A stretch of 36,612 nucleotides of DNA. Source: Clostridiales bacterium (GTDB taxonomy: Bacteria; Bacillota; Clostridia; Oscillospirales; Ruminococcaceae). Made by a program: the position numbers and the translations under genes. Positions within the stretch are counted from its first letter, which is position 1; each line of letters opens with the position of its first letter. Of this stretch, positions 1,443 through 36,612 are shown piece after piece. The notes beneath the pieces are model-generated. The model ran no database searches. It had not been told where the DNA came from and saw nothing but the letters and a program-made list of their open reading frames with translations. The DNA lies in contig JAAYPV010000015.1 of the NCBI GenBank assembly GCA_012519635.1, positions 1 to 36,612 of the forward strand, given 5' to 3'.

Positions 1443-3776
1443 TTATTTTGTAAGTATTCTTAGTAATCCTGATACATCCAATGAATTTATAAATCCATCG
1501 CCATTTATGTCTGCATTCTTTGGAGCAGGTATTGTTTTACTTGCGCCAAGAACATATTTTTTTAGAGTTAGCAGGTCAGCAATATTTATTTGCTCATCAC
1601 CGTTAACATCGCCAAGAACAATCTTGCGTCCCTCAGGTTCGCTTCCGAAAACAAGCGTATCACCAAGATAAACTGGAACTTTCTTTGTAATAGCATAGTC
1701 CTCATCAAGATTTTCTCTGCTGAAATCATTTGTAGGGTCCCAGTTACTATTGTAGTTTTCGTCCTGTCCTACGATAACAGCGAACTGAACCTCGCGGCTA
1801 CCATATAGCTTATATCCAAACCAGTCAATTTCAATGTAATAGGTGCCGTTATCATCCCAGCTGTAAGGACCACTGATATTTACAGGTCCATCATAGGTTG
1901 CCTCATTTTCGTCATAATATTTTTCTATTCTTACATCTTCAATACTTTGGCCAGCCTTAGTAAGCTCATCAATATTAAAGAAGTATCTGATTTTAAGATT
2001 ATTCACATATCTTGGAGGAAGGAAGGTATTTGCGTGTAGGTTGAAGGTAACCTGTGTACGCTCAAGGTTTTCCTGCTCTAGCTTTCCTTCAATATAAAAC
2101 TCAATAATTTCACCCTTCATGGACTCTTCGCTAGGAGGGAAGTTCTCCATAGGCTTATGTCCCAACTCTTCGCCATAGTAGTGATATAGACCTGCACAAG
2201 CACCTGTAAATCCAGCATTATAGTCAACTGCAACCTCATTGTAGATATAATCCTTTGTAATATCTAAATGGTAGTCTTTCTCGTCCGGACCACCAACCAA
2301 TGCTCCCCAGAGGACATGAACCTGAACAGGAGGGTCATCCATGCTATAAGTTGTTGAGCCATGTGCTGCACGATGATGAGGATTTTTTGCTGAATTTTCA
2401 GCATATCCAACGATATATGAGCGGTCCATAGGGTTTTTACCCATTATATATTCCATCTGACTTCTTGCCCAATCAGCAAATCTCATATCGCCTGTTTCTT
2501 TTGTATAAACCAATGCACAGAGCTGAGCAGCGGTATTATATCTTGCTGAGCCATAGTTGTTAAGCATTGCGAATCCGCCAGGAGTCTGTAATAAGTATGT
2601 TCCGTCACTTGAATCCTCGTGAGGAATTACACCACCGGACCAGTATTCGATATTCCATCTGAAAATATACCAATCTCTTTCAGTATTTGTGATAGGAGCA
2701 AGTTTTGCAAACACACCGCCCCAGACTGTATCCCAGCAGTGAACCCAGATATTCTGCCATGTGTTACCTGTATCCTTAATAATTCTTTGTAAGTAGCCTG
2801 TATAATCTCTTGAGCCATTTTCGTTTACTACATCGCTTTCAGAGATAATATCCTCAATATAATTCCAATCGCCAGTACATTCATATAGCCAGACAGCAGC
2901 CCATGAAAGCTCGTCATAATCATAGCTGGAGGTATAGAACCCACCGTCATAGCCCAAGCCTCTGTTTTCAACAGCAAATTTATAAAGTGCAATAGCCTTC
3001 TTAAGGCTTTCTTCAGCATATTCAGGTTCAGTATCCTTGAAGTTGAGATAATTTATTGCAAGAGAAGCTGCAGTACCCGCACACATATCTGAAGCAGGTG
3101 TATCAACTGTTGCAAAATATGCAGGTCTTGCAAAGCCAAGCAAGGACTCATTCTGCAATTCAGGGGGGTTCCAGTAGTTGTGGTCGATATCACCCTCACC
3201 AACCTGATAGCAGAAGGCGATTACATCACCATTTTCATCAAGATAAGTGGATTTCATATAGTAGTCATTAAACCAATGGAGAATGTCCTCCACATGCTTT
3301 TGCTGCCCTGATTTTATGTAGGCATCGCGAAATTCATAGTAGCCCCATCCCACAGTTGAGGCAGCATATGAACCTGGAAGTCCGAATTTAACATGGTCTC
3401 CGGCATCGTGCATACCGCCATCCTGGTTGATATATCCATCACCGTCGGGGTCAAGGATATGCTTATATTTTTCGATAAATTCTTCTGAGAGGTTTGTGCC
3501 TTTTTTATCCTCCCCCATAGGTTTTAGTGGAATTGCAGCATCCTCTGTATGGCAATCGCCCCTCCATTCAAGGTTTCCATCTGTAATTCCAGAACCGCAT
3601 TTATTTGCGTCATAGAAGTACAAGGATAGCTGTAAGGCCTTTGCAAAATTGACTTCAACATCATCATACTCATCGGTAACAGCTGTTGCCAAGAGGGTAG
3701 ATGAGCAGGTGGAAGAAGCCAAAACAGCCGATGTAGCAAGTATGCATACTTTTTTAAGAAGCTTTGATTTTATCAT
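1443..3776 (-). CDS. Dockerin-bearing GH9 endoglucanase (signal peptide, GH9, CBM3, dockerin I)
   Basis: This 777-aa secreted cellulase hydrolyses beta-1,4-glucan. Residues 1-32 form a signal peptide (KSKLLKK, then a hydrophobic core). The GH9 catalytic domain spans about 43-535: the HDAGDHVKFGLP block contains the family's base aspartates (D124, D127), the NPHHR block the conserved His/Arg, and NEVAVDYNAGF the proton-donor Glu (E514). Residues from about 550 to 700 resemble a CBM3 of the 3c type fused to GH9 in processive endoglucanases. Residues 722-777 are a type I dockerin with two calcium-binding repeats (GDVNGDEQINIADLL and ADINGDGFINSLDVS). The dockerin implies assembly into a cellulosome, but no scaffoldin or cohesin is in this window. 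The start has GAAAGGAATG upstream. The gene stands alone between its own promoter and terminator. Confidence 0.95.
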   Translation of the reverse strand: MIKSKLLKKVCILATSAVLASSTCSSTLLATAVTDEYDDVEVNFAKALQLSLYFYDANKCGSGITDGNLEWRGDCHTEDAAIPLKPMGEDKKGTNLSEEFIEKYKHILDPDGDGYINQDGGMHDAGDHVKFGLPGSYAASTVGWGYYEFRDAYIKSGQQKHVEDILHWFNDYYMKSTYLDENGDVIAFCYQVGEGDIDHNYWNPPELQNESLLGFARPAYFATVDTPASDMCAGTAASLAINYLNFKDTEPEYAEESLKKAIALYKFAVENRGLGYDGGFYTSSYDYDELSWAAVWLYECTGDWNYIEDIISESDVVNENGSRDYTGYLQRIIKDTGNTWQNIWVHCWDTVWGGVFAKLAPITNTERDWYIFRWNIEYWSGGVIPHEDSSDGTYLLQTPGGFAMLNNYGSARYNTAAQLCALVYTKETGDMRFADWARSQMEYIMGKNPMDRSYIVGYAENSAKNPHHRAAHGSTTYSMDDPPVQVHVLWGALVGGPDEKDYHLDITKDYIYNEVAVDYNAGFTGACAGLYHYYGEELGHKPMENFPPSEESMKGEIIEFYIEGKLEQENLERTQVTFNLHANTFLPPRYVNNLKIRYFFNIDELTKAGQSIEDVRIEKYYDENEATYDGPVNISGPYSWDDNGTYYIEIDWFGYKLYGSREVQFAVIVGQDENYNSNWDPTNDFSRENLDEDYAITKKVPVYLGDTLVFGSEPEGRKIVLGDVNGDEQINIADLLTLKKYVLGASKTIPAPKNADINGDGFINSLDVSGLLRILTK

Positions 3777-26466: not shown

Positions 26467-26500
26467 TTTTAAGATTAATTTAAGTTACTGTAAGTATAAT
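26467..26500 (+). promoter_or_regulatory. Activator-type promoter of the VTC-DUF4956 operon
   Basis: A perfect -10 TATAAT (26495-26500) lacks a recognisable -35. In its place stand direct repeats with 10-11 bp spacing: TAAG at 26470, 26481 and 26491. The stretch TTTTAAGATTAATTTAA (26467-26483) matches 15 of 17 bases of a stretch in the promoter of the response regulator gene at 30121-30137. In both cases it lies exactly 11 bp before a -10. Repeats of this period replacing a -35 are typical of OmpR/PhoB-family binding. The site is inferred. Confidence 0.55.
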
Positions 26501-26536: not shown

Positions 26537-27289
26537 ATGGCTATTGCTACATTTAAACGCAAAGAAATTAAGTTCCTAATTAACGACGAACAGTTTGAGG
26601 CACTTATTCCAGCAATAGAGGAGCATATGGTTCCTGATTCCTATTGCGTGGGTGGCAGGGAGTATGGTGTTTATAATATCTATTACGACACTGCTGACAG
26701 CTATCTGATAAGAGAATCCCTTGCAAAGCCATATTATAAGGAAAAAATACGGTTGAGAAGCTATTTTTCGCCTGCTAAGCCTGATGATACAGTTTTTTTG
26801 GAAATAAAAAAGAAAATTGGCGGAGTGGTTGCTAAAAGGCGTGTTGTAATGACCCTGCAGGAAGCTGAAAAATATTTGACAAAGGGAATAAAGCCAGAAA
26901 CGGATAAATACATACAGCAGCAGGTTTTTAGCGAAATCGATGCATTTTTACGAAGATATGATGTTGCACCAGCACAATACATAAGCTATCAGCGGTATGC
27001 TTTTTTCGGGAAATACGATAATTCCTTCCGCCTTACCTTTGATAGGGAAATTACAGAGCGTCGTAAAGATTTGTCATTGGCATCGAAAAGCTATGGTAAT
27101 CAGATTATTTTACCTGACCAGCATCTTATGGAGGTAAAAATATCGAATTCAGTTCCAATGTGGCTTTGTGAAAAGTTGGCGGAGCTTAAAATTTATAAAA
27201 CCAGCTTTTCAAAATATGGCAGAGCTTATGCTACATTTGTTTATAATAATATTAATAAAGAGAACAGGAGAATTAAGACCTATGCTTGA
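26537..27289 (+). CDS. VTC-domain polyphosphate polymerase-like protein
   Basis: The 250-aa protein is a stand-alone VTC domain, the catalytic fold that in yeast Vtc4 makes polyphosphate from ATP inside a tunnel. Basic and acidic tunnel residues are visible in the expected order: RKEIKFLI (8-15), EKIRLRS (R72, R74), FLEIKKK (E89, K91), KRR (100-102), FRLTFDRE (164-171), LMEVKIS (E199, K201) and the final SKYGRA (225-230). There is no SPX domain. It overlaps the following DUF4956 membrane gene, a pairing common in Firmicutes. AAGGAGG precedes the ATG. Polyphosphate synthesis is the family's known activity; the bacterial product here is inferred. Confidence 0.9.
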   Translation: MAIATFKRKEIKFLINDEQFEALIPAIEEHMVPDSYCVGGREYGVYNIYYDTADSYLIRESLAKPYYKEKIRLRSYFSPAKPDDTVFLEIKKKIGGVVAKRRVVMTLQEAEKYLTKGIKPETDKYIQQQVFSEIDAFLRRYDVAPAQYISYQRYAFFGKYDNSFRLTFDREITERRKDLSLASKSYGNQIILPDQHLMEVKISNSVPMWLCEKLAELKIYKTSFSKYGRAYATFVYNNINKENRRIKTYA

Positions 27290-27977
27290 TAAAATTTTTG
27301 GTACGGTATTTGGTGAGGGCGTATCCCTTACAATAGGGCGTATGCTTTTGATTATTATTGCAGCGATAGTTTTAGGGTTTCTTATAAGTGCCTTGTATTT
27401 ATATGTGCATAGGAAAGAAAACTTTATAAAAAGCTATATAATTACAATTGTAATGTTGCCACCAATGATTGCAATAATTATTTTGTTAATAGGTGATAAT
27501 ATCGCGAGAGCATTCAGCTTAGCGGGTGCTTTTTCCCTTGTGAGGTACAGAAGTGCAGCGGGTGACCCAAGTGATATCTGCTTTATCTTTTTCTCACTTG
27601 CGGTGGGGCTTGCGTGTGGTTTAGGATATTTGGGGTATGGCTTTGTGTTCTTTATACTACTAAGCATTCTTACTATTATCCTACACAAAACAAATTATGG
27701 AACTCCGCCGGCAACACATATGACTTTGAAAATAACTATACCTGAGAATTTAAATTATAATGGCTTGTTTGATGAAGTGCTTGATAAATACACAACTGAC
27801 TGGAATTTAAATCGCGTTAAGACTGTTCAATTCGGTAGCCTTTTTGATTTAGTTTATTCGATTGAACTTGACAAGAATGCGGACCAGAAGAAGTTTATTG
27901 ATGAGTTGAGAACTCTTAACGGAAATCTTAATATTACATTGGTATTATCAAGAAATGAAAGCAAGGTTTATGATTAA
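27282..27977 (+). CDS. DUF4956 integral membrane protein
   Basis: A 231-aa polytopic membrane protein. Hydrophobic segments lie at about residues 18-42, 53-75 and 85-130 (MLLIIIAAIVLGFLIS, YIITIVMLPPMIAIIILL, and a double segment around VGLACGLGYLGYGFVFFILL). The conserved block FSLAGAFSLVRYRSAAGDPSDICFIFFS lies between them. A soluble C-terminal domain (about 145-231) ends in VLSRNESKVYD. The frame is open further upstream inside the VTC gene. I chose the ATG at 27282 because AGGAG precedes it and it gives the usual DUF4956 start. It overlaps the VTC gene by 8 bp, so the two act together: the membrane protein may carry or anchor the polymerase product. Function unproven. Confidence 0.88.
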   Translation: MLDKIFGTVFGEGVSLTIGRMLLIIIAAIVLGFLISALYLYVHRKENFIKSYIITIVMLPPMIAIIILLIGDNIARAFSLAGAFSLVRYRSAAGDPSDICFIFFSLAVGLACGLGYLGYGFVFFILLSILTIILHKTNYGTPPATHMTLKITIPENLNYNGLFDEVLDKYTTDWNLNRVKTVQFGSLFDLVYSIELDKNADQKKFIDELRTLNGNLNITLVLSRNESKVYD

Positions 27978-28064: not shown

Positions 28065-29399
28065 TTACAAGAGAACTGTGAATGTCGCTTTATTGTCTTT
28101 GGATTTAACGCTGATACTACCCTTATGCCTTTCAACTATCGATTTTGCGATATTCAAACCAAGTCCAGAGCCACCAGTATTTCTGTTACGGGATTCATCA
28201 ATCCGATAAAAGCGTTCGAAAATATGTTCTAAATGCTTATTAGGTATGGTTGAGCCCTTGTTTGAAACCTCAAAGCGTATTCGTTTGTTTTCTTCCTTTA
28301 GTTGTACTGTTATTTCTGAACTTTTACTGGAATATTTTAATGCGTTGTCAATCAGAATTGTTGCAAGATGTTTTAACTCATCTTCGTCACCAAAATATTC
28401 AATATCATTTGAAATATCGGTTTCAAGTATCTTGCCGTTTTCAAAAATCAATGGTTCAAACACCAAGCATACTCCTAAAATAAGATGCCCAAGATTGATT
28501 TTTTCAAAAACAGGTTTCTTGTTATTAGCATCAAACTTTGCAATATACAAAAGATTTGTTACAATTTTAGACATGCGGTTTGTTTCTTCCTTTATATACA
28601 TAAGCCATTTCGATTGGTTTTTGACAAGGTCATCTTCGTTTGCAAGTACAACATCTGTATTTGCAGCAATTACTGTCAACGGGGTTTTCAATTCATGTGA
28701 TGCGTCGGCAACGAATTGTTTCTGTTTATCCCATGCAATTGCAATCGGTTTTATTGTCCAGTTTGCAAGTAGAAAGCTCATTCCCAATAACAGAACTATG
28801 GATATAGCACCGATTATAGTGAAGGTTATAAGCAGCCTTCCAAGCGTTGAAAGTTCCATTGAACGATTAAGCACAACCAGTTTATAACCGTTCGGGTTTT
28901 TTTCATAGATGTATCTAAAGTCTATGTCGGAAACTTCAAATTTGCCCTTGCTTTTACCACTTTTAAAAGCTGCAGATGCAATGCTTTCAATAAAGCTTTG
29001 GTCGGAGGTATATGATTCTAAGTATTGAAAGTGAACATATTCAATCTGCTTGTCCTTTGATAGGCTGATATAAATTGTATCTCCCACTAAATTTTTTTTC
29101 TGTTTATTGTCCATAGAATCAGGCGGTTTTTGAGGCATAGCATTAGGTCGATTAGACGAGTTTACAGATGCATCTTCTTTATGATTTAAAGCAGGGCTGT
29201 TTTTAGGTGGTTCGAAGGATTTACGCTGATTACCAGCCATATTTGAATAGCGTTCTAAGGTTGCGTGCATGATTTCTTCGGACTGGCTGACCTCAGAGCT
29301 ATACATAAGCACGAATATTCCTACTAAAACGGAAATTAGTACGGTTGTAAGTATTGCCATATTTACAACAAGAAACCTAAGCCTTAATTTTTTTATCAT
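28065..29399 (-). CDS. Sensor histidine kinase (EnvZ/PhoR class)
   Basis: The 444-aa membrane kinase has membrane helices at about 10-32 and 188-212, framing an extracytoplasmic sensor domain of about 150 residues. The first part of that domain is a low-complexity stretch rich in P, N, S and K (residues 60-105). A short linker leads to the dimerisation helix with phospho-acceptor H235 in FVADASHELKTPL. The ATP-binding domain follows: N box DNALKYSSKSSEI, FERFYRIDESRNRNTGGSGLGLNIAKSIVERH (F and G boxes). Its start overlaps the response regulator's stop by one base (TAATG), so the two are translated together. The signal is unknown. Confidence 0.95.
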   Translation of the reverse strand: MIKKLRLRFLVVNMAILTTVLISVLVGIFVLMYSSEVSQSEEIMHATLERYSNMAGNQRKSFEPPKNSPALNHKEDASVNSSNRPNAMPQKPPDSMDNKQKKNLVGDTIYISLSKDKQIEYVHFQYLESYTSDQSFIESIASAAFKSGKSKGKFEVSDIDFRYIYEKNPNGYKLVVLNRSMELSTLGRLLITFTIIGAISIVLLLGMSFLLANWTIKPIAIAWDKQKQFVADASHELKTPLTVIAANTDVVLANEDDLVKNQSKWLMYIKEETNRMSKIVTNLLYIAKFDANNKKPVFEKINLGHLILGVCLVFEPLIFENGKILETDISNDIEYFGDEDELKHLATILIDNALKYSSKSSEITVQLKEENKRIRFEVSNKGSTIPNKHLEHIFERFYRIDESRNRNTGGSGLGLNIAKSIVERHKGSISVKSKDNKATFTVLL

Positions 29400-30073
29400 T
29401 AGACTTCCTCCAGACAGTAACCGACTCCTCTGACTGTTTTAATTGCTACCTTAGAGTTGATATGCAATAGCTTTTTTCTCAGAAAGGAAATATATACCTC
29501 TACATTATTGTATTCCGCATCTGATTCATAGCCCCAGATTTTTTCAATAAGAGTTTCCTTACTTATGATTCTGTTACCATTTTCAATGAGAATCTCCATT
29601 ATGCCGTACTCCTTCAGCCCCAGCTTAACTGATTTATTACTACAGCTTAACTCATAGGTGGAAAGGTTGAGCGATATATCTGAGAAATTAAGTGTACTTT
29701 CACAGACGATATTTGCTTTCCTTCGGTAAAGCGAACGAACTCTTGCAAGTAGTTCATTAGTTGAAAAAGGCTTTGTAATATAGTCATCAGCACCAATATC
29801 AAGCCCGTAAACCTTATCAGCAACCTCGTCCTTTGCAGTTAAAATTAGTACAGGAGTGGTTATTTTTTTAAGACGGATTTTTTTTAAAACATCAAAGCCG
29901 TTCATTTTAGGAAGCATGATATCAAGTATAATTATATCGTAGACTCCTGTTAAGGCATTGTCAAAACCGCTTATGCCGTCATTACAGATATCTGCTGTAT
30001 ATTTATTTTTGTGAAAAATTTGTGCTAAGGCTTCTGCAAGTGCAATTTCGTCTTCAACAATAAGTATTCGCAT
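29399..30073 (-). CDS. OmpR/PhoB-family response regulator
   Basis: The 224-aa regulator has a receiver domain with the acidic pocket E7-D8, phospho-acceptor D51 (DIIILDIMLPKMNGFDVL), T79 and K101 (DDYITKPFS). The C-terminal winged-helix DNA-binding domain starts near residue 125 and includes LGLKEYGIMEILIENG, then ETLIEKIWGYESDAEYNNVEVYISFLRKKL. The frame is open 45 codons upstream. AGGAGG placed 7 nt before the ATG at 30073 decides the start. It precedes the kinase gene. Its own promoter carries the same repeat stretch as the VTC operon promoter, suggesting autoregulation and control of that operon. Confidence 0.95.
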   Translation of the reverse strand: MRILIVEDEIALAEALAQIFHKNKYTADICNDGISGFDNALTGVYDIIILDIMLPKMNGFDVLKKIRLKKITTPVLILTAKDEVADKVYGLDIGADDYITKPFSTNELLARVRSLYRRKANIVCESTLNFSDISLNLSTYELSCSNKSVKLGLKEYGIMEILIENGNRIISKETLIEKIWGYESDAEYNNVEVYISFLRKKLLHINSKVAIKTVRGVGYCLEEV

Positions 30074-30103: not shown

Positions 30104-30137
30104 ATTATCGCATACTTTTATTAAATCAAACTTAAAA
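30104..30137 (-). promoter_or_regulatory. Promoter of the two-component system with shared operator-like repeat
   Basis: On the minus strand the stretch TTTTAAGTTTGATTTAA (30121-30137) stands 11 bp before GATAAT (30104-30109). The TTTAA units are 11 bp apart. A conventional reading (TTGATT, 16 bp, TAATAT at 30102-30107) is also possible. The match to 26467-26500 is 15 of 17 bases with the same distance to the -10. Confidence 0.55.
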
Positions 30138-30208: not shown

Positions 30209-31033
30209 TTAATCAAAGGAAACCTCAAATAAAGCTCTTTCCTTTATTGTATCGGAGTTAAGATTGCTCAATGCATCAATTATTGCAATATGAAAATTAC
30301 CTGTACCAATTCTGCCGCATTTTTCATAGGCTATTTCTCCGGCAATACCCATTGACGCAACTCCAGCCACTGCTGCTGTTAAATAATCATCAGTTGCTCC
30401 TGCAAATGAGCCTACTAACGCAGTTGTCATACAGCCTGTCCCTGTAACCCTTGAAAGCATTTTATGCCCATTTTTGATTTTAACAAGCGTTTTCCCATTT
30501 GTTATAATATCTGTCGCACCAGTGATTGCTACTATGCAGTTTAATTTTTTAGCAACTGATTTTGCAATATCGACTGCATCATATTTTGTTGAATCAGCCT
30601 CTGATGAATCAACGCCTTTAGTGGAGACCTCAAGTCCAGCTATAAATGAAACCTCAGACAGATTTCCTCGAATTATGGATAGCTTGATATTTTCAACAAT
30701 CTCCCTTGATGTATTATTTCTGAGCAATGATGCTCCAGCGCCTACTGGATCAAATACAACAGGAATTCCAATCTCATTTGCCCTCTTGCCTGCCTCAAAA
30801 ATTGATGGTATAGTATGCCTGTTAAGTGTACCAATGTTAATAACAAGTGCAGATGAAATAGCTGTGATATCAGCGGCCTCCCCTATATCATCAGCCATAA
30901 TAGGTGAGGCTCCGATTGCCAGAACTGCATTAGCACAGTCATTTACTGTAACATAATTTGTGATATTATGTATAAGTGGAGACTTTTCTCTTATTTCTTC
31001 TGAAAGCATTGCGACTTTTTCTCTAATATCCAT
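30209..31033 (-). CDS. thiM: Hydroxyethylthiazole kinase ThiM
   Basis: ThiM phosphorylates 4-methyl-5-(2-hydroxyethyl)thiazole in thiamine salvage. The 274-aa protein has the family start PLIHNITNYVTVNDCANAVLAIGASPIMADD, the block PVVFDPVGAGASLLRN, and the catalytic/ATP region SRVTGTGCMTTALVGSFAG (Cys in GTGCM). GGAGGG lies 7 nt before the ATG. It is monocistronic under a TPP riboswitch; thiD and thiE, its usual partners, are not in the window and must be elsewhere or absent. A promoter and a terminator bound it. Confidence 0.97.
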   Translation of the reverse strand: MDIREKVAMLSEEIREKSPLIHNITNYVTVNDCANAVLAIGASPIMADDIGEAADITAISSALVINIGTLNRHTIPSIFEAGKRANEIGIPVVFDPVGAGASLLRNNTSREIVENIKLSIIRGNLSEVSFIAGLEVSTKGVDSSEADSTKYDAVDIAKSVAKKLNCIVAITGATDIITNGKTLVKIKNGHKMLSRVTGTGCMTTALVGSFAGATDDYLTAAVAGVASMGIAGEIAYEKCGRIGTGNFHIAIIDALSNLNSDTIKERALFEVSFD

Positions 31034-31098: not shown

Positions 31099-31118
31099 CA
31101 ATTACCATATTAAGTAAC

Positions 31119-31205
31119 AATTTGCTCCCTACAACAGTATTAACTGACAGGTTCAAAGGGTTAGGCACATGCCTTCTCAACTTTAACAGTACCCCTGCAA
31201 AAATT
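31119..31205 (-). ncRNA. TPP riboswitch (THI element)
   Basis: On the minus strand: P1 AATTTTTGC pairs with GCAAATT at the other end. The conserved core follows in order: GGGGTACTG, then TTGAGA (consensus CUGAGA), then ACCCTTTGAACCTG, then GTTAATACTG and TAGGGAGCA. These are the thiamine-pyrophosphate binding blocks. It lies between the thiM promoter and the attenuator, so thiamine pyrophosphate should switch thiM off. Confidence 0.96.
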
Positions 31206-31216
31206 AATTTTTCTAC

Positions 31217-31961: not shown

Positions 31962-34292
31962 TTATTCACTTCTCAATGCCTCAACAGCGTCTCTCTTAGA
32001 TGCCATTCGTGCTGGTATATGTCCGCCCAACATTGTTAAAACAGTACTGATAATGATGAGCATTACACCATGTATAGGATTTAGGAAGGCTACACCTTTA
32101 ACTCCAGTCATATCTTCGATAAATATATTTATAGGTATTGTACCAATTGCTGCAAGTCCTACACCTAATAATCCTGAAAATACACCTAAAATACAGGTTT
32201 CAGCGTCAAACACGCGTGTAATATCCTTCTTTCTTGCACCAAGTGCCTTTAAGATACCAATTTCCTTTGTTCTTTCCAATACAGATGTATATGTGATAAT
32301 GCAAATCATGATAAGGCTTACAACAAGTGAAATTGCTGCGAACGCGATAAGAACAATTGTAATTGCGTCCATTATACCGCCAGTCATATCTGAAATAGAG
32401 CTTGCAAGGTCAATATAAAGAATCTTATCCTCATCGGATTTGTCCTTGTTATACTCATCTAAATAAGCGGTAACCTTATCCTTTGCTTCAAAATCCTTTG
32501 GATAAACTGTGATTAAGAATGGAGTGGAATCTCCACCTAGTGTTGCCAAAATCATTGATTTTTCGTCTTCTGTTATATCAGCCATTGTGAATACATTTTT
32601 GTCTGATTTCTTTTGAGCCTTTACTATTTCGGAATCCAATGTATTTTTTAGAATCAATGAGGATAGCTCATCGTCATAAACAATTCCAGTTGCTAGCAGG
32701 CCGATTTTTACATCTTTTTTAACTCTGACGATACCTGTTATTTTCAAATGAATGTTATTTTCATTTTTATACATTTCATCATAATTTGTAGCAGGTAAAA
32801 ATGTTCCAAATTCGGTTTTTGCATAGTACACATCATTAGGAACGGATACAAATTCTGTTCCGATTATTTCGTCAAAGCTGAAGGTTTTCTTGCCTTCAAC
32901 ATCAAAACCAAGTGCCTTTAATGTGTGTAAATCAATTCTGTTTTTGGTATCAACAAGCAATATTAAATCTGTTGGCTTTTCAGGATAGCTTCCTGCAAGC
33001 AGGTCATAGTTTTCAGTAAGATATGATTCTTTGCTATCGCCCAGGTTTTTTGGATAAGAGCTCATGTCAGTATATTCAAGTGAAATGGAATCAGGACTTT
33101 TTAGTGAAACAGGCTTAACTTCTCCGTCGACTTTGCGAAGAAGATTCATGGAAACAAGATTAAGATTTCCTATTTTACTGCAAATCTCAGGGTCAATATT
33201 GTTAAGATAGTCTATGAACTCCTTATCAAACTTATTGGTATGCTTTACAAACAATTCTGTTGAATCGAATAGATAAATTTCATCAGTATCAGCATATTCG
33301 GGCGTACCCATCATCTGTTTCATTGTTGCATCTTGATAGCCTTCAATATTTTCAATATTTGCAGTAGTTGATGATTGATAAATCTGAATAGGGAATTCAT
33401 TCATTGCATCTTCTTGGAACTTATCAATTTGAATCTGGAAGCCTGTTGAAAGGCTTAAAATCAACGCAATTCCGATAATACCGATACTTGAAGCAAATGC
33501 AGTAAGGAATGTACGACCTTTTTTGGTTTTAAGGTTATTGAATGAAAGCCCTAGAGCTGTAAAAAAGCTCATACTTGTTTTGGTTAGCTTAAAATCATCT
33601 TCTTTTGGCTTTTCAATATGAGGATGTGAGTCGGAGATGATATTACCGTCCTCAAATTTAATAATTCTATCCGCATATTTTTCAGCCAAGTCAGGATTAT
33701 GAGTTACCATGATTACCAGTTTGTCTTTTGCAACCTCTTTTATAAGGTCTAAAATCTGCACACTGGTAGCAGAGTCTAAGGCACCTGTTGGCTCATCGCA
33801 AAGTAATATTTCAGGGTCATTTGCAAGTGCTCTTGCAATTGCAACACGCTGCATTTGTCCTCCTGAAAGTTGGTTTGGTTTTTTATGCAAATGGTCCTTT
33901 AATCCAACCTTTGTAAGAACATCAATTGCACGCTTGCGTTTTTCAGACTTTGAAACTCCACTAAGCGTCATTCCAAGCTCAACATTTGCTACTATACTTA
34001 AATGAGTGATAAGATTATAGCTTTGGAATACAAATCCAACAGAGTTATTACGATAAGCGTCCCAGTCCTTATCTGTAAAATTCTTTGTACTCTTGCCTTT
34101 AACGATAAAATCGCCAGAATCATAGCGGTCAAGTCCACCTATAATATTAAGTGCAGTGGTTTTTCCGGAACCACTTGTTCCAAGAATTGCAACAAATTCC
34201 TTTTCCCTAAATGCAACGCTTATTCCATTCAGAGCCTTTGTCTCGACATCGCCTACTTTATAGATCTTTTTAATGTTTTTTAACTCAAACAT
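31962..34292 (-). CDS. MacB-like ABC transporter, ATPase fused to FtsX-type permease
   Basis: The 776-aa fusion exports or mechanically moves a substrate across the membrane using ATP. Residues 1-230 are the nucleotide-binding domain: Walker [10 protein letters not shown] loop FVFQSYNLI, signature LSGGQMQR and Walker [13 protein letters not shown]. After a linker, a first membrane helix lies at about 265-290. A large extracytoplasmic domain (about 295-630) follows. Three C-terminal helices carry the FtsX block ([21 protein letters not shown]). The domain set is typical of MacB/BceAB-like systems for peptide, antibiotic or lipoprotein transport. The TetR gene directly upstream (TAA then ATG) probably controls it. 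Substrate unknown. Confidence 0.93.
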
Positions 34293-34910
34293 TTAGCAAC
34301 TCCTTCTTTGAAAGCCTCTTTTTAGAAGTTCCAATTTATTTAGATATTTAGCTTTAATAGCTTCGTATTCAGATGTATCTAGAAACAGCTCGACTACCGC
34401 ATCTCTTGAAACAGAGAGCAGAATTTCAAACATATGCAGAAAATCTGTTTTGCTGTTAAGCTCAAGCAAATCAAGATTTACATCATCTTTAATTGAGTTA
34501 TAAGCCTCAATTATTGTAGTACATGGTGAGTGCTTTGAAAAGATATCTGCAATAATCTTTATATCAGAAAAAAGATTATTGCAAAAACCATTAATTTTTT
34601 CTTTGTCAACAAACTGTATTGTAAAATCCAATATATCCCCGAACATTTTAAAAATGTCACCATTGTTATCTCTAAGACTTTTTTTTATATCCCAAAGCAT
34701 CTGTGTGTAGTAGTCGGACAGGATATAATTTAGCATATCAGTTTTGTCTTCAAAGTATTGGTAAAAACTCCCCCTTGATATACCAGCTTCCTGAACAATT
34801 TTATTAATGGAAACCTTATCAAAGGGGACTCGTGCCAGTTCGTTTTTAATTGCTGCAATAATTTTTTTATGTTTTTTCGGAGGCAAATTTAAAAAGGTTG
34901 ATGTTGGCAT
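34293..34910 (-). CDS. TetR-family transcriptional regulator
   Basis: The 205-aa regulator has an N-terminal helix-turn-helix (FDKVSINKIVQEAGISRGSFYQYFEDKTDML, residues about 30-60). A divergent all-helical ligand-binding domain makes up the remainder. It is followed without a gap by the ABC transporter gene, so the two form an operon. The promoter upstream contains a 17-bp palindrome, which makes autoregulation very likely. Ligand unknown; a substrate of the transporter is the natural guess. Confidence 0.93.
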   Translation of the reverse strand: MPTSTFLNLPPKKHKKIIAAIKNELARVPFDKVSINKIVQEAGISRGSFYQYFEDKTDMLNYILSDYYTQMLWDIKKSLRDNNGDIFKMFGDILDFTIQFVDKEKINGFCNNLFSDIKIIADIFSKHSPCTTIIEAYNSIKDDVNLDLLELNSKTDFLHMFEILLSVSRDAVVELFLDTSEYEAIKAKYLNKLELLKRGFQRRSC

Positions 34911-35144: not shown

Positions 35145-36612
35145 TTAGAAACGAGGTCCGGGTCTCATTCCGCCGCCCGATACAACCAGTGCTGCAGTTG
35201 CAGTTGCAACGGTTGAGCCACCTGAATATGTGCCACCTGTATAGTAGCCGTCAACATTTGTCCCGCCAGTGTATGTTCCACCAGTTGAGATTGTGTATGT
35301 TTGACTGGTTACTAAATCTGGAGATGTGAACATTATTGATCTTATATTTTTTGAAGGCTTGAAAGTAAGCACGCTTTTTCCTGTTGAATCGGAAATATTT
35401 ATAAGTGTTCCTGCATTTACAGAAACATTTGTAAGAATTGAACTTTGTGTTGATGCTGATGAGTTAGGTCCCATAGCCATTCCTAAGCTTCCAACGGCAA
35501 TTACTGTACCACCTGTTGCGGTGATTGCACCGTCTGAATCAACAGCACTGTTTCCGTCATTTGTTGGACCGTTTACTATTACAAGTCCTCCGTTCATATT
35601 TAATACACCGTTTGAATCAAGTCCGTCACCGTATGCATCAATATATATATAACCTCCGTTGATATTCAATGCGGAATTTGTTGTAACAAATGAGCCTTGA
35701 CCCCAGCCGCCGGGACCTTTAGTTGCCGAACCATCACCGCCAGCTACATTTAAGCCGTCATCACTTGCTGTAATACGGATTGTGCCGTCATTTATAGTGA
35801 TATTGCTCCCTTCGATTCCTTCATAAGATTTAGTGATTTCAATTGTACCGCTGTTTATTATTATATCTGTATCAGCGTGAATTCCATCATCACCTGTTGC
35901 CATAGTGAATGTTCCGCCTGATATATTCAATGTTCCGTTTGAATGTAGGCAATCGTCTGAGGAATCAATTACAAATGTACCGCCACTGATTGTTATATCA
36001 GAAACAGCCTTGATTCCCTTAGCACTGTTAGTTGTAGCATAGCCTGAGAATTTGCTTCCCTGATATGTGTAGATATTGAAATTGCCACCGCTTATATTAA
36101 CATTAGTTTCAGCCTTAATACCGTCATTTGCTGCTTTGATTGTGATATCCCCGCCGAGTATATTAATATATCCCTTAGTGGTTTCTTCAGTATTTGTTGA
36201 AACAATACCATCACCGGATGCGGTAATGTTTACGGAACCGCCTTCAATTGTAACTGAATCCTTACCTCTTAAGCCATCGTCAGCGGAGGTAATCTGGATA
36301 TTGCCGTTCTTTACTTTCAAATCATCTTTGCTAACGATGCCATCAAGGTAATTTGCCTTAACAATTAGCGTGCCCGAACCTTTAATATTCAAGTCATCCT
36401 TTGAGTAGATTGCACCCTCAATGGTGGTATCTGTTCTTGTTGAGCCGTCTGTTATATAGTTTGTAGTACCCTTAGCAAGTTCAATTGTGCATTTGTCTTT
36501 AATACTTTCAACATATATCGGAGAAGAATCTTTGTTTGCGATATTAACATTATTCATAACAAGTGTTACATTGTCTGTATCTGGATTGGAGTAAACTGTT
36601 TTATCTACATCA
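35145..36612 (-). CDS. Cthe_2159-like carbohydrate-binding beta-helix protein (partial, runs off right edge)
   Basis: At least 488 residues are visible. The frame stays open to the window edge (DVDKTVYSNPDTDNVTLVMNNVNI precedes the first internal Met), so the N terminus is missing. The protein is a chain of short beta-solenoid rungs with repeated DG or DDGI/L turns: ANYLDGIVSKDDL, ADDGLRGKDSV, SGDGIVSTN, ANDGIKAETNV, SDDCLHSNGTL, GDDGIHADTDI and SDDGLNVAGGD. This matches the Cthe_2159 family of cell-surface beta-helix proteins, one member of which binds cellulose and pectin. The C-terminal end is Gly/Thr-rich (YTGGT-NVDGYYTGGTYSGGS). No dockerin or sortase signal is visible at the C terminus. 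A polysaccharide-binding surface role is inferred. Confidence 0.85.
   Translation of the reverse strand, partial: DVDKTVYSNPDTDNVTLVMNNVNIANKDSSPIYVESIKDKCTIELAKGTTNYITDGSTRTDTTIEGAIYSKDDLNIKGSGTLIVKANYLDGIVSKDDLKVKNGNIQITSADDGLRGKDSVTIEGGSVNITASGDGIVSTNTEETTKGYINILGGDITIKAANDGIKAETNVNISGGNFNIYTYQGSKFSGYATTNSAKGIKAVSDITISGGTFVIDSSDDCLHSNGTLNISGGTFTMATGDDGIHADTDIIINSGTIEITKSYEGIEGSNITINDGTIRITASDDGLNVAGGDGSATKGPGGWGQGSFVTTNSALNINGGYIYIDAYGDGLDSNGVLNMNGGLVIVNGPTNDGNSAVDSDGAITATGGTVIAVGSLGMAMGPNSSASTQSSILTNVSVNAGTLINISDSTGKSVLTFKPSKNIRSIMFTSPDLVTSQTYTISTGGTYTGGTNVDGYYTGGTYSGGSTVATATAALVVSGGGMRPGPRF

Follow-up and report, generated by a model that had tools for sequence, protein, structure and literature searches.

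The window, i.e. the whole 36,612-nt stretch of DNA that was analysed, belongs to contig JAAYPV010000015.1 of a Clostridiales bacterium of the family Ruminococcaceae (GCA_012519635.1), whose genome assembly comprises 1.69 Mb at 37% GC and is 83.5% complete. An operon encoding a VTC-domain protein and a DUF4956 membrane protein is convergent with a two-component operon encoding a response regulator (RR) and a sensor histidine kinase. Both promoters carry a box of two directly repeated hexamers, and a third box is found upstream of a dockerin/Cthe_2159 surface-protein gene that reaches the end of the window. The features are listed below, with promoter elements read from the sequence and proteins assigned by domain matches.

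26468–26484, + strand: CiaR-type box of the VTC-DUF4956 promoter, present at 73 of the 80 VTC loci from relatives
26468–26473, + strand: VTC half-site 1, TTTAAG
26479–26484, + strand: VTC half-site 2, TTTAAG
26495–26500, + strand: −10 element TATAAT, 10 bp past the box (distance peak 9–10 bp), without a separate −35
26537–27289, + strand: VTC-domain protein, putative polyphosphate polymerase (Pfam PF09359, E 1.9e-43)
27282–27977, + strand: DUF4956 membrane protein, overlapping the VTC 3′ end (Pfam PF16316, E 7.7e-17)
28065–29399, − strand: sensor histidine kinase (HisKA and HATPase_c)
29399–30073, − strand: OmpR-family RR with phospho-acceptor Asp51 and recognition helix NVEVYISFLRKKL (Response_reg and Trans_reg_C)
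30104–30112, − strand: extended −10 TGC-GATAAT of the RR promoter (TGC 30112–30110; GATAAT 30109–30104)
30120–30136, − strand: CiaR-type box TTTAAG-N5-TTTAAT of the RR promoter, with an equivalent in 12 of 12 Ruminococcus orthologue promoters
30136–30131, − strand: RR half-site 1, TTTAAG
30125–30120, − strand: RR half-site 2, TTTAAT
35145–36612, − strand: dockerin/Cthe_2159 surface-protein gene, 3′ part (PF14262, E 5.3e-84)
36506–36612, no strand: exact 107-bp overlap between the window end and the end of contig C51 (C51:6294–6400), unique in the genome
C51:4705–4737: box of the dockerin/Cthe_2159 gene (strict pattern match)

The VTC promoter (26468–26500, + strand) is composed of TTTAAG-ATTAA-TTTAAG-N10-TATAAT, and the RR promoter (30136–30104, − strand) of TTTAAG-TTTGA-TTTAAT-N10-GATAAT. 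In the box, a hexamer is directly repeated at a period of 11 bp, and the repeat takes up the −35 position. A period of ∼11 bp corresponds to about one helical turn and is the usual spacing of tandem sites for OmpR-family regulators. The earlier note had matched the two promoters at 15 of 17 bases with equal spacing and had described the VTC promoter as a TATAAT −10 element with an upstream element in place of a −35; the match, the spacing and the coordinates were all right on a sequence check, and the layout is seen in the sequence.

The VTC protein scores 149.2 bits against Pfam PF09359, far above the cut-off of 23, and thus belongs to the family; it is this membership that suggests polyphosphate synthesis as its activity. 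A comparison of its sequence with the PDB gave weak, non-significant matches only, yeast Vtc2 among them. The predicted model of the DUF4956 protein (pLDDT 80, fair) contains several long N-terminal helices followed by an α/β domain and has no fold match in the PDB at E < 0.001. The DUF4956 gene adjoins the VTC gene in 60 of 61 loci, and this constant adjacency makes the protein a putative, unproven membrane partner of VTC. On the two-component side, a domain search found no known sensor domain in the kinase, and for the RR not one of the 25 top-scoring NCBIfam models reaches its own cut-off. Assignment of the RR to PmrA (NCBIfam NF007928) was rejected at 190.3 bits against a cut-off of 330. 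Directly upstream of the two-component system lies a hydroxyethylthiazole kinase gene (30209–31033), itself preceded by a TPP riboswitch (31109–31206, − strand). A MacB-like ABC transporter with a fused FtsX domain and a TetR regulator occupy 31962–34910 (− strand), between the two-component system and the Cthe_2159 gene, and no box was seen in that segment.

The box of the dockerin/Cthe_2159 gene is located on C51, 66 bp upstream of the gene, whose 5′ end is also on C51. The Cthe_2159 ORF continues in frame through the 107-bp overlap. C51 probably continues the window, with the Cthe_2159 gene spanning the contig break. On this assembly evidence, the unique in-frame overlap between C51 and the window, the boxes of the host genome appear to surround a single locus made up of the VTC-DUF4956 operon, the two-component system and the Cthe_2159 gene. 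A dockerin-bearing glycoside hydrolase of family 9 with a CBM3 is encoded elsewhere in the window (1443–3776, − strand); judging from this gene, the organism probably makes a cellulosome.

The frequency of the box was compared with that of control patterns, reversed in the case of the loose motif. A loose pattern, TTTAANNNNNNTTTAAN-(9-13)-TANNAT, occurs five times in the host genome versus six times for its control, and sites with up to three mismatches number 32 versus 38. A loose match alone therefore proves nothing, because it lies at background. The strict pattern, TTTAAGN5TTTAAG-(9-12)-TANNAT, has two sites in the host genome, before the VTC and dockerin/Cthe_2159 genes, and none in the control; the RR site, with two mismatches, belongs to the group of sites that rank next in similarity. 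The listing for 119 family genomes has about 33 strict sites versus six in the control; for 12 Ruminococcus genomes the figures are about 66 and three. In half-site matches to the consensus, the VTC and Cthe_2159 sites score 12/12 and the RR site 11/12.

Conservation was examined in 80 named Ruminococcaceae VTC loci from R. flavefaciens and relatives (1.14 Mb in total), where a box was called at 11 or more of 12 half-site matches and permuted motifs served as controls. The VTC promoter is boxed in 73 of the 80 loci, which are related by descent, so that box counts are not independent events. Of the seven boxless loci, two are truncated at a contig end, the first half-site has degenerated in two more, and no box precedes VTC in the other three (L205, L206 and L210). 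The same 1.14 Mb contains 89 boxes, 74 before VTC and 15 before Cthe_2159 with none elsewhere, versus 0–2 matches for the permuted motifs. Information content over 60 non-redundant promoters from related loci is 1.6–2.0 bits at each base of the half-sites and the −10 element, apart from the first T with 0.76 bits; across most of the N10 spacer and most of the far upstream flank it is near 0–0.5 bits. The random spacer indicates that the related loci have had time enough to diverge.

Across the family, hexamer pairs separated by N5 occur in 33 of 62 VTC upstream regions (4–18 at other spacings) and in 11 of 21 RR upstream regions (0–6 at other spacings), and the distance from box to −10 in these regions peaks sharply at 9–10 bp. 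All three host-genome sites have N10 spacing, as do almost all VTC sites in the set of 80 related loci. With these results, the genome-wide frequency and conservation test that the earlier note had set beforehand as a refutation failed to refute the strict architecture. The proposal that the similarity goes beyond chance holds for this architecture, which is conserved and exceeds its control, but two sites alone were insufficient and the loose motif was at background. The proposed operator common to the VTC-DUF4956 module and the two-component system is strongly supported by the VTC promoters, the RR orthologue promoters of 12 of 12 Ruminococcus genomes and the spacing peaks; it is not private to them, however, and also precedes dockerin/Cthe_2159 genes.

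An identical direct repeat, NTTAAG-N5-TTTAAG, is bound by CiaR of Streptococcus, and the CiaR box TTTAAG-N5-TTTAAG likewise lies 10 bp from the −10 element (PMC3091779). Even the variable base is the same: the first T of the first repeat both here and in the NTTAAG consensus. The RR of CiaRH is likewise of the OmpR family, and its recognition helix VVEVYVSKVRKKL (taken from PMC3091779) resembles that of the window RR, NVEVYISFLRKKL, with 9 of 13 positions identical. The systems differ in host, which is a member of the Ruminococcaceae rather than Streptococcus, and in regulon, the targets here being VTC-DUF4956 and dockerin/Cthe_2159 proteins. CiaR is 80–99% similar within streptococci, and CiaRH has been described as confined to them (PMC8186281). 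CiaRH in the strict sense, with a streptococcal host and a kinase bearing the CiaH sensor domain, does not fit here: the relatives are Ruminococcaceae, and published searches found no CiaH outside streptococci (PMC3091779). PmrA of Acinetobacter, another OmpR-family RR, binds an identical box, and the PmrAB systems of Acinetobacter and Salmonella share the direct repeat TTTAAGNNNNNTTTAAG (PMC10927774); unlike the present system, PmrAB is Gram-negative and targets pmrC and naxD in polymyxin resistance.

VTC-type polymerases beside DUF4956 have been noted in other settings. Gram-positive pel clusters contain CotH-polyphosphate polymerase-DUF4956 accessory genes (PMC7112168), but no operator is described there and no pel genes were noticed beside the window VTC. 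The NELoc-2 locus of Clostridium perfringens has a VTC gene beside a protein annotated as tubulin/FtsZ, with CotH nearby (PMC2879425); we infer that this neighbour is a DUF4956 protein, and no CiaR-type operator has been reported for the locus. That the regulation of bacterial VTC-DUF4956 modules has hardly been described fits a search of open-access literature, where no regulator was found. The type of box is itself known from CiaR and PmrA. A search of open-access literature likewise found no paper on CiaR-type control in Ruminococcus.

The association between regulator and box was analysed by phylogeny and gene content. In each of the 12 Ruminococcus genomes, the gene for the best match of the window RR (58–75% identity) is preceded by a box, which most often reads TTTAAG-N5-TTTCAA and is accompanied by an extended −10; most RR orthologue promoters carry a TGN-TATAAT extended −10. 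RRs of ≤39% identity in these genomes have no upstream box. Close orthologues from G055, G118 and G106 have near-perfect boxes before the RR gene; those from G096, G117, G005 and G108 have none there, although their VTC promoters are boxed. In the tree, the window RR belongs to a supported clade of ten (98/97), and the R. flavefaciens RRs form a separate, neighbouring clade. No genome examined has RRs of both clades, and the boxed R. flavefaciens RR is likely, though not proven, to be an orthologue of the window RR. Across 58 genomes with VTC, the VTC promoter is boxed in 12 of 16 with a close RR versus 16 of 42 without (Fisher p 0.018), and in 10 of 16 versus 5 of 42 under a stricter, post-hoc cut of at least 11 half-site matches. 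These counts point to a moderate association of RR and box across the family at the threshold used. In about 20 of 60 family loci, the VTC cluster has an RR of the wider group as a neighbour.

From these patterns we infer that the adjacent RR very probably binds the box, activates the VTC-DUF4956 operon and the surface-protein gene and controls its own expression, with binding, activation and dependence on phosphorylation all part of the proposal. Two phosphorylated RR molecules would occupy the tandem TTTAAG half-sites from the same face of the helix. As the promoter has no −35, the bound RR would take over its role and bring RNA polymerase to the −10 element ten bp downstream. Its targets in the host genome would be VTC-DUF4956, the dockerin/Cthe_2159 gene and the regulator-kinase operon itself. 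At the latter promoter, the weaker second half-site combined with the extended −10 would give low basal expression and positive feedback.

Close OmpR paralogues often cross-bind, and a paralogous OmpR-family regulator could mainly control VTC and Cthe_2159 while the adjacent RR shares the box wholly or partly. One candidate, the contig-47 RR (C47:7306–7968, L324), is 58% identical to the window RR and has a near-identical helix, SIEVYISFLRKKL; other close RR paralogues also have similar recognition helices. The promoter of the adjacent RR is boxed, however, whereas that of the contig-47 RR has no good box (best 13/18), and the contig-47 RR falls into a third clade that is present in only four genomes, with most boxed genomes lacking it. 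Control mainly by such a paralogue is thus unlikely.

A reversal of sign, with the regulator repressing these promoters or the box acting as a dual-purpose element, has precedents in OmpR-family regulators that repress, but it sits poorly with a box at the −35 position of promoters without any −35, a layout that fits a −35-replacing activator and recurs in CiaR-activated promoters (PMC3091779). The nearly fixed distance to the −10 element also argues against repression, and we consider it improbable. Chance similarity of two AT-rich promoters would account for the background level of loose matches in a 37% GC genome, yet it has a negligible probability: whichever collection was tested, strict sites outnumbered controls and preceded the same genes, and the conservation among the 80 loci already refutes it. 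Activation by the adjacent RR is therefore the preferred reading.

In the 12 Ruminococcus genomes, each of which has 3–10 boxes, the genes after the boxes encode VTC, several dockerin/Cthe_2159 proteins and RRs, and further encode lamin-tail-domain surface proteins, a metallo-β-lactamase-fold lipoprotein and a sigma-70-family sigma factor. A further strict box (L037, G056:C310:2554–2586) precedes a gene that by eye resembles a P-type cation ATPase, in a genome that has the RR and in which no VTC was found. One conserved box site has no gene after it and precedes an unannotated, predicted ∼80-nt RNA in R. flavefaciens and relatives, found at the following loci.

L336, about 235–316, + strand: small RNA
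L343, L349, L355, L060, L243, L248, L259, L387, L388 and L391–L393: small RNA

In sequence and predicted structure, the RNA has a hairpin on its 5′ side, GGAUUAAGUAAUCC, followed by an unpaired stretch rich in C, CCCAAUUCCCCUUCU, which is an anti-Shine-Dalgarno (anti-SD) sequence, and by an intrinsic terminator. It matches no Rfam family. When 298 genomes were searched with a covariance model built from the RNA only, promoter excluded, seven further loci were identified, and five of these loci have a perfect box directly upstream with N10 to the −10 element. RNA and box are tied together, because the promoter-free model finds boxed loci independently. In the host genome, which is 83.5% complete, the RNA was found neither by the covariance model nor behind weak boxes. 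Like streptococcal csRNAs (PMC3091779), the Ruminococcus RNA has a box promoter, two hairpins and an unpaired anti-SD region, together with the terminator; the csRNA nonamer [A/C]UCCUAAA[A/C] is not seen in its alignment and is missing in some streptococcal csRNAs too (PMC3091779). The box in these relatives would thus also drive a csRNA-like RNA. The RR leaders were rejected as a specific target, as pairing energies for orthologues (−6.5 to −15.7 kcal/mol) and close paralogues (−5.5 to −18.5 kcal/mol) overlap.

It is somewhat probable that a CiaR-type circuit with csRNA-like RNAs exists outside Streptococcus and, in Ruminococcaceae, couples VTC-DUF4956 to dockerin/Cthe_2159 proteins and the metallo-β-lactamase-fold lipoprotein. 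Control of the CiaR type, which has so far been reported for streptococci alone, would then govern another regulon here, and such a circuit would represent either an ancient shared regulon type or a striking convergence. The csRNA-like RNA would challenge the view that only streptococci combine CiaR-type boxes with RNAs of this kind. The operator would link VTC-DUF4956 to the dockerin and cell-surface machinery of cellulose-degrading rumen bacteria, in a regulon that could be read from the box. With an operator that is conserved and defined in sequence, and a candidate regulator named for it, the physiology of VTC-DUF4956 becomes testable.

Some regulator clades carry TTTCAG repeats in the promoters of the regulator genes themselves (L309, L310, L313, L278–L282 and L326), and their recognition helices are altered to VEAY or VG. 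This co-variation of half-site and helix, which involves few independent events, is suggestive of a possible specificity switch.
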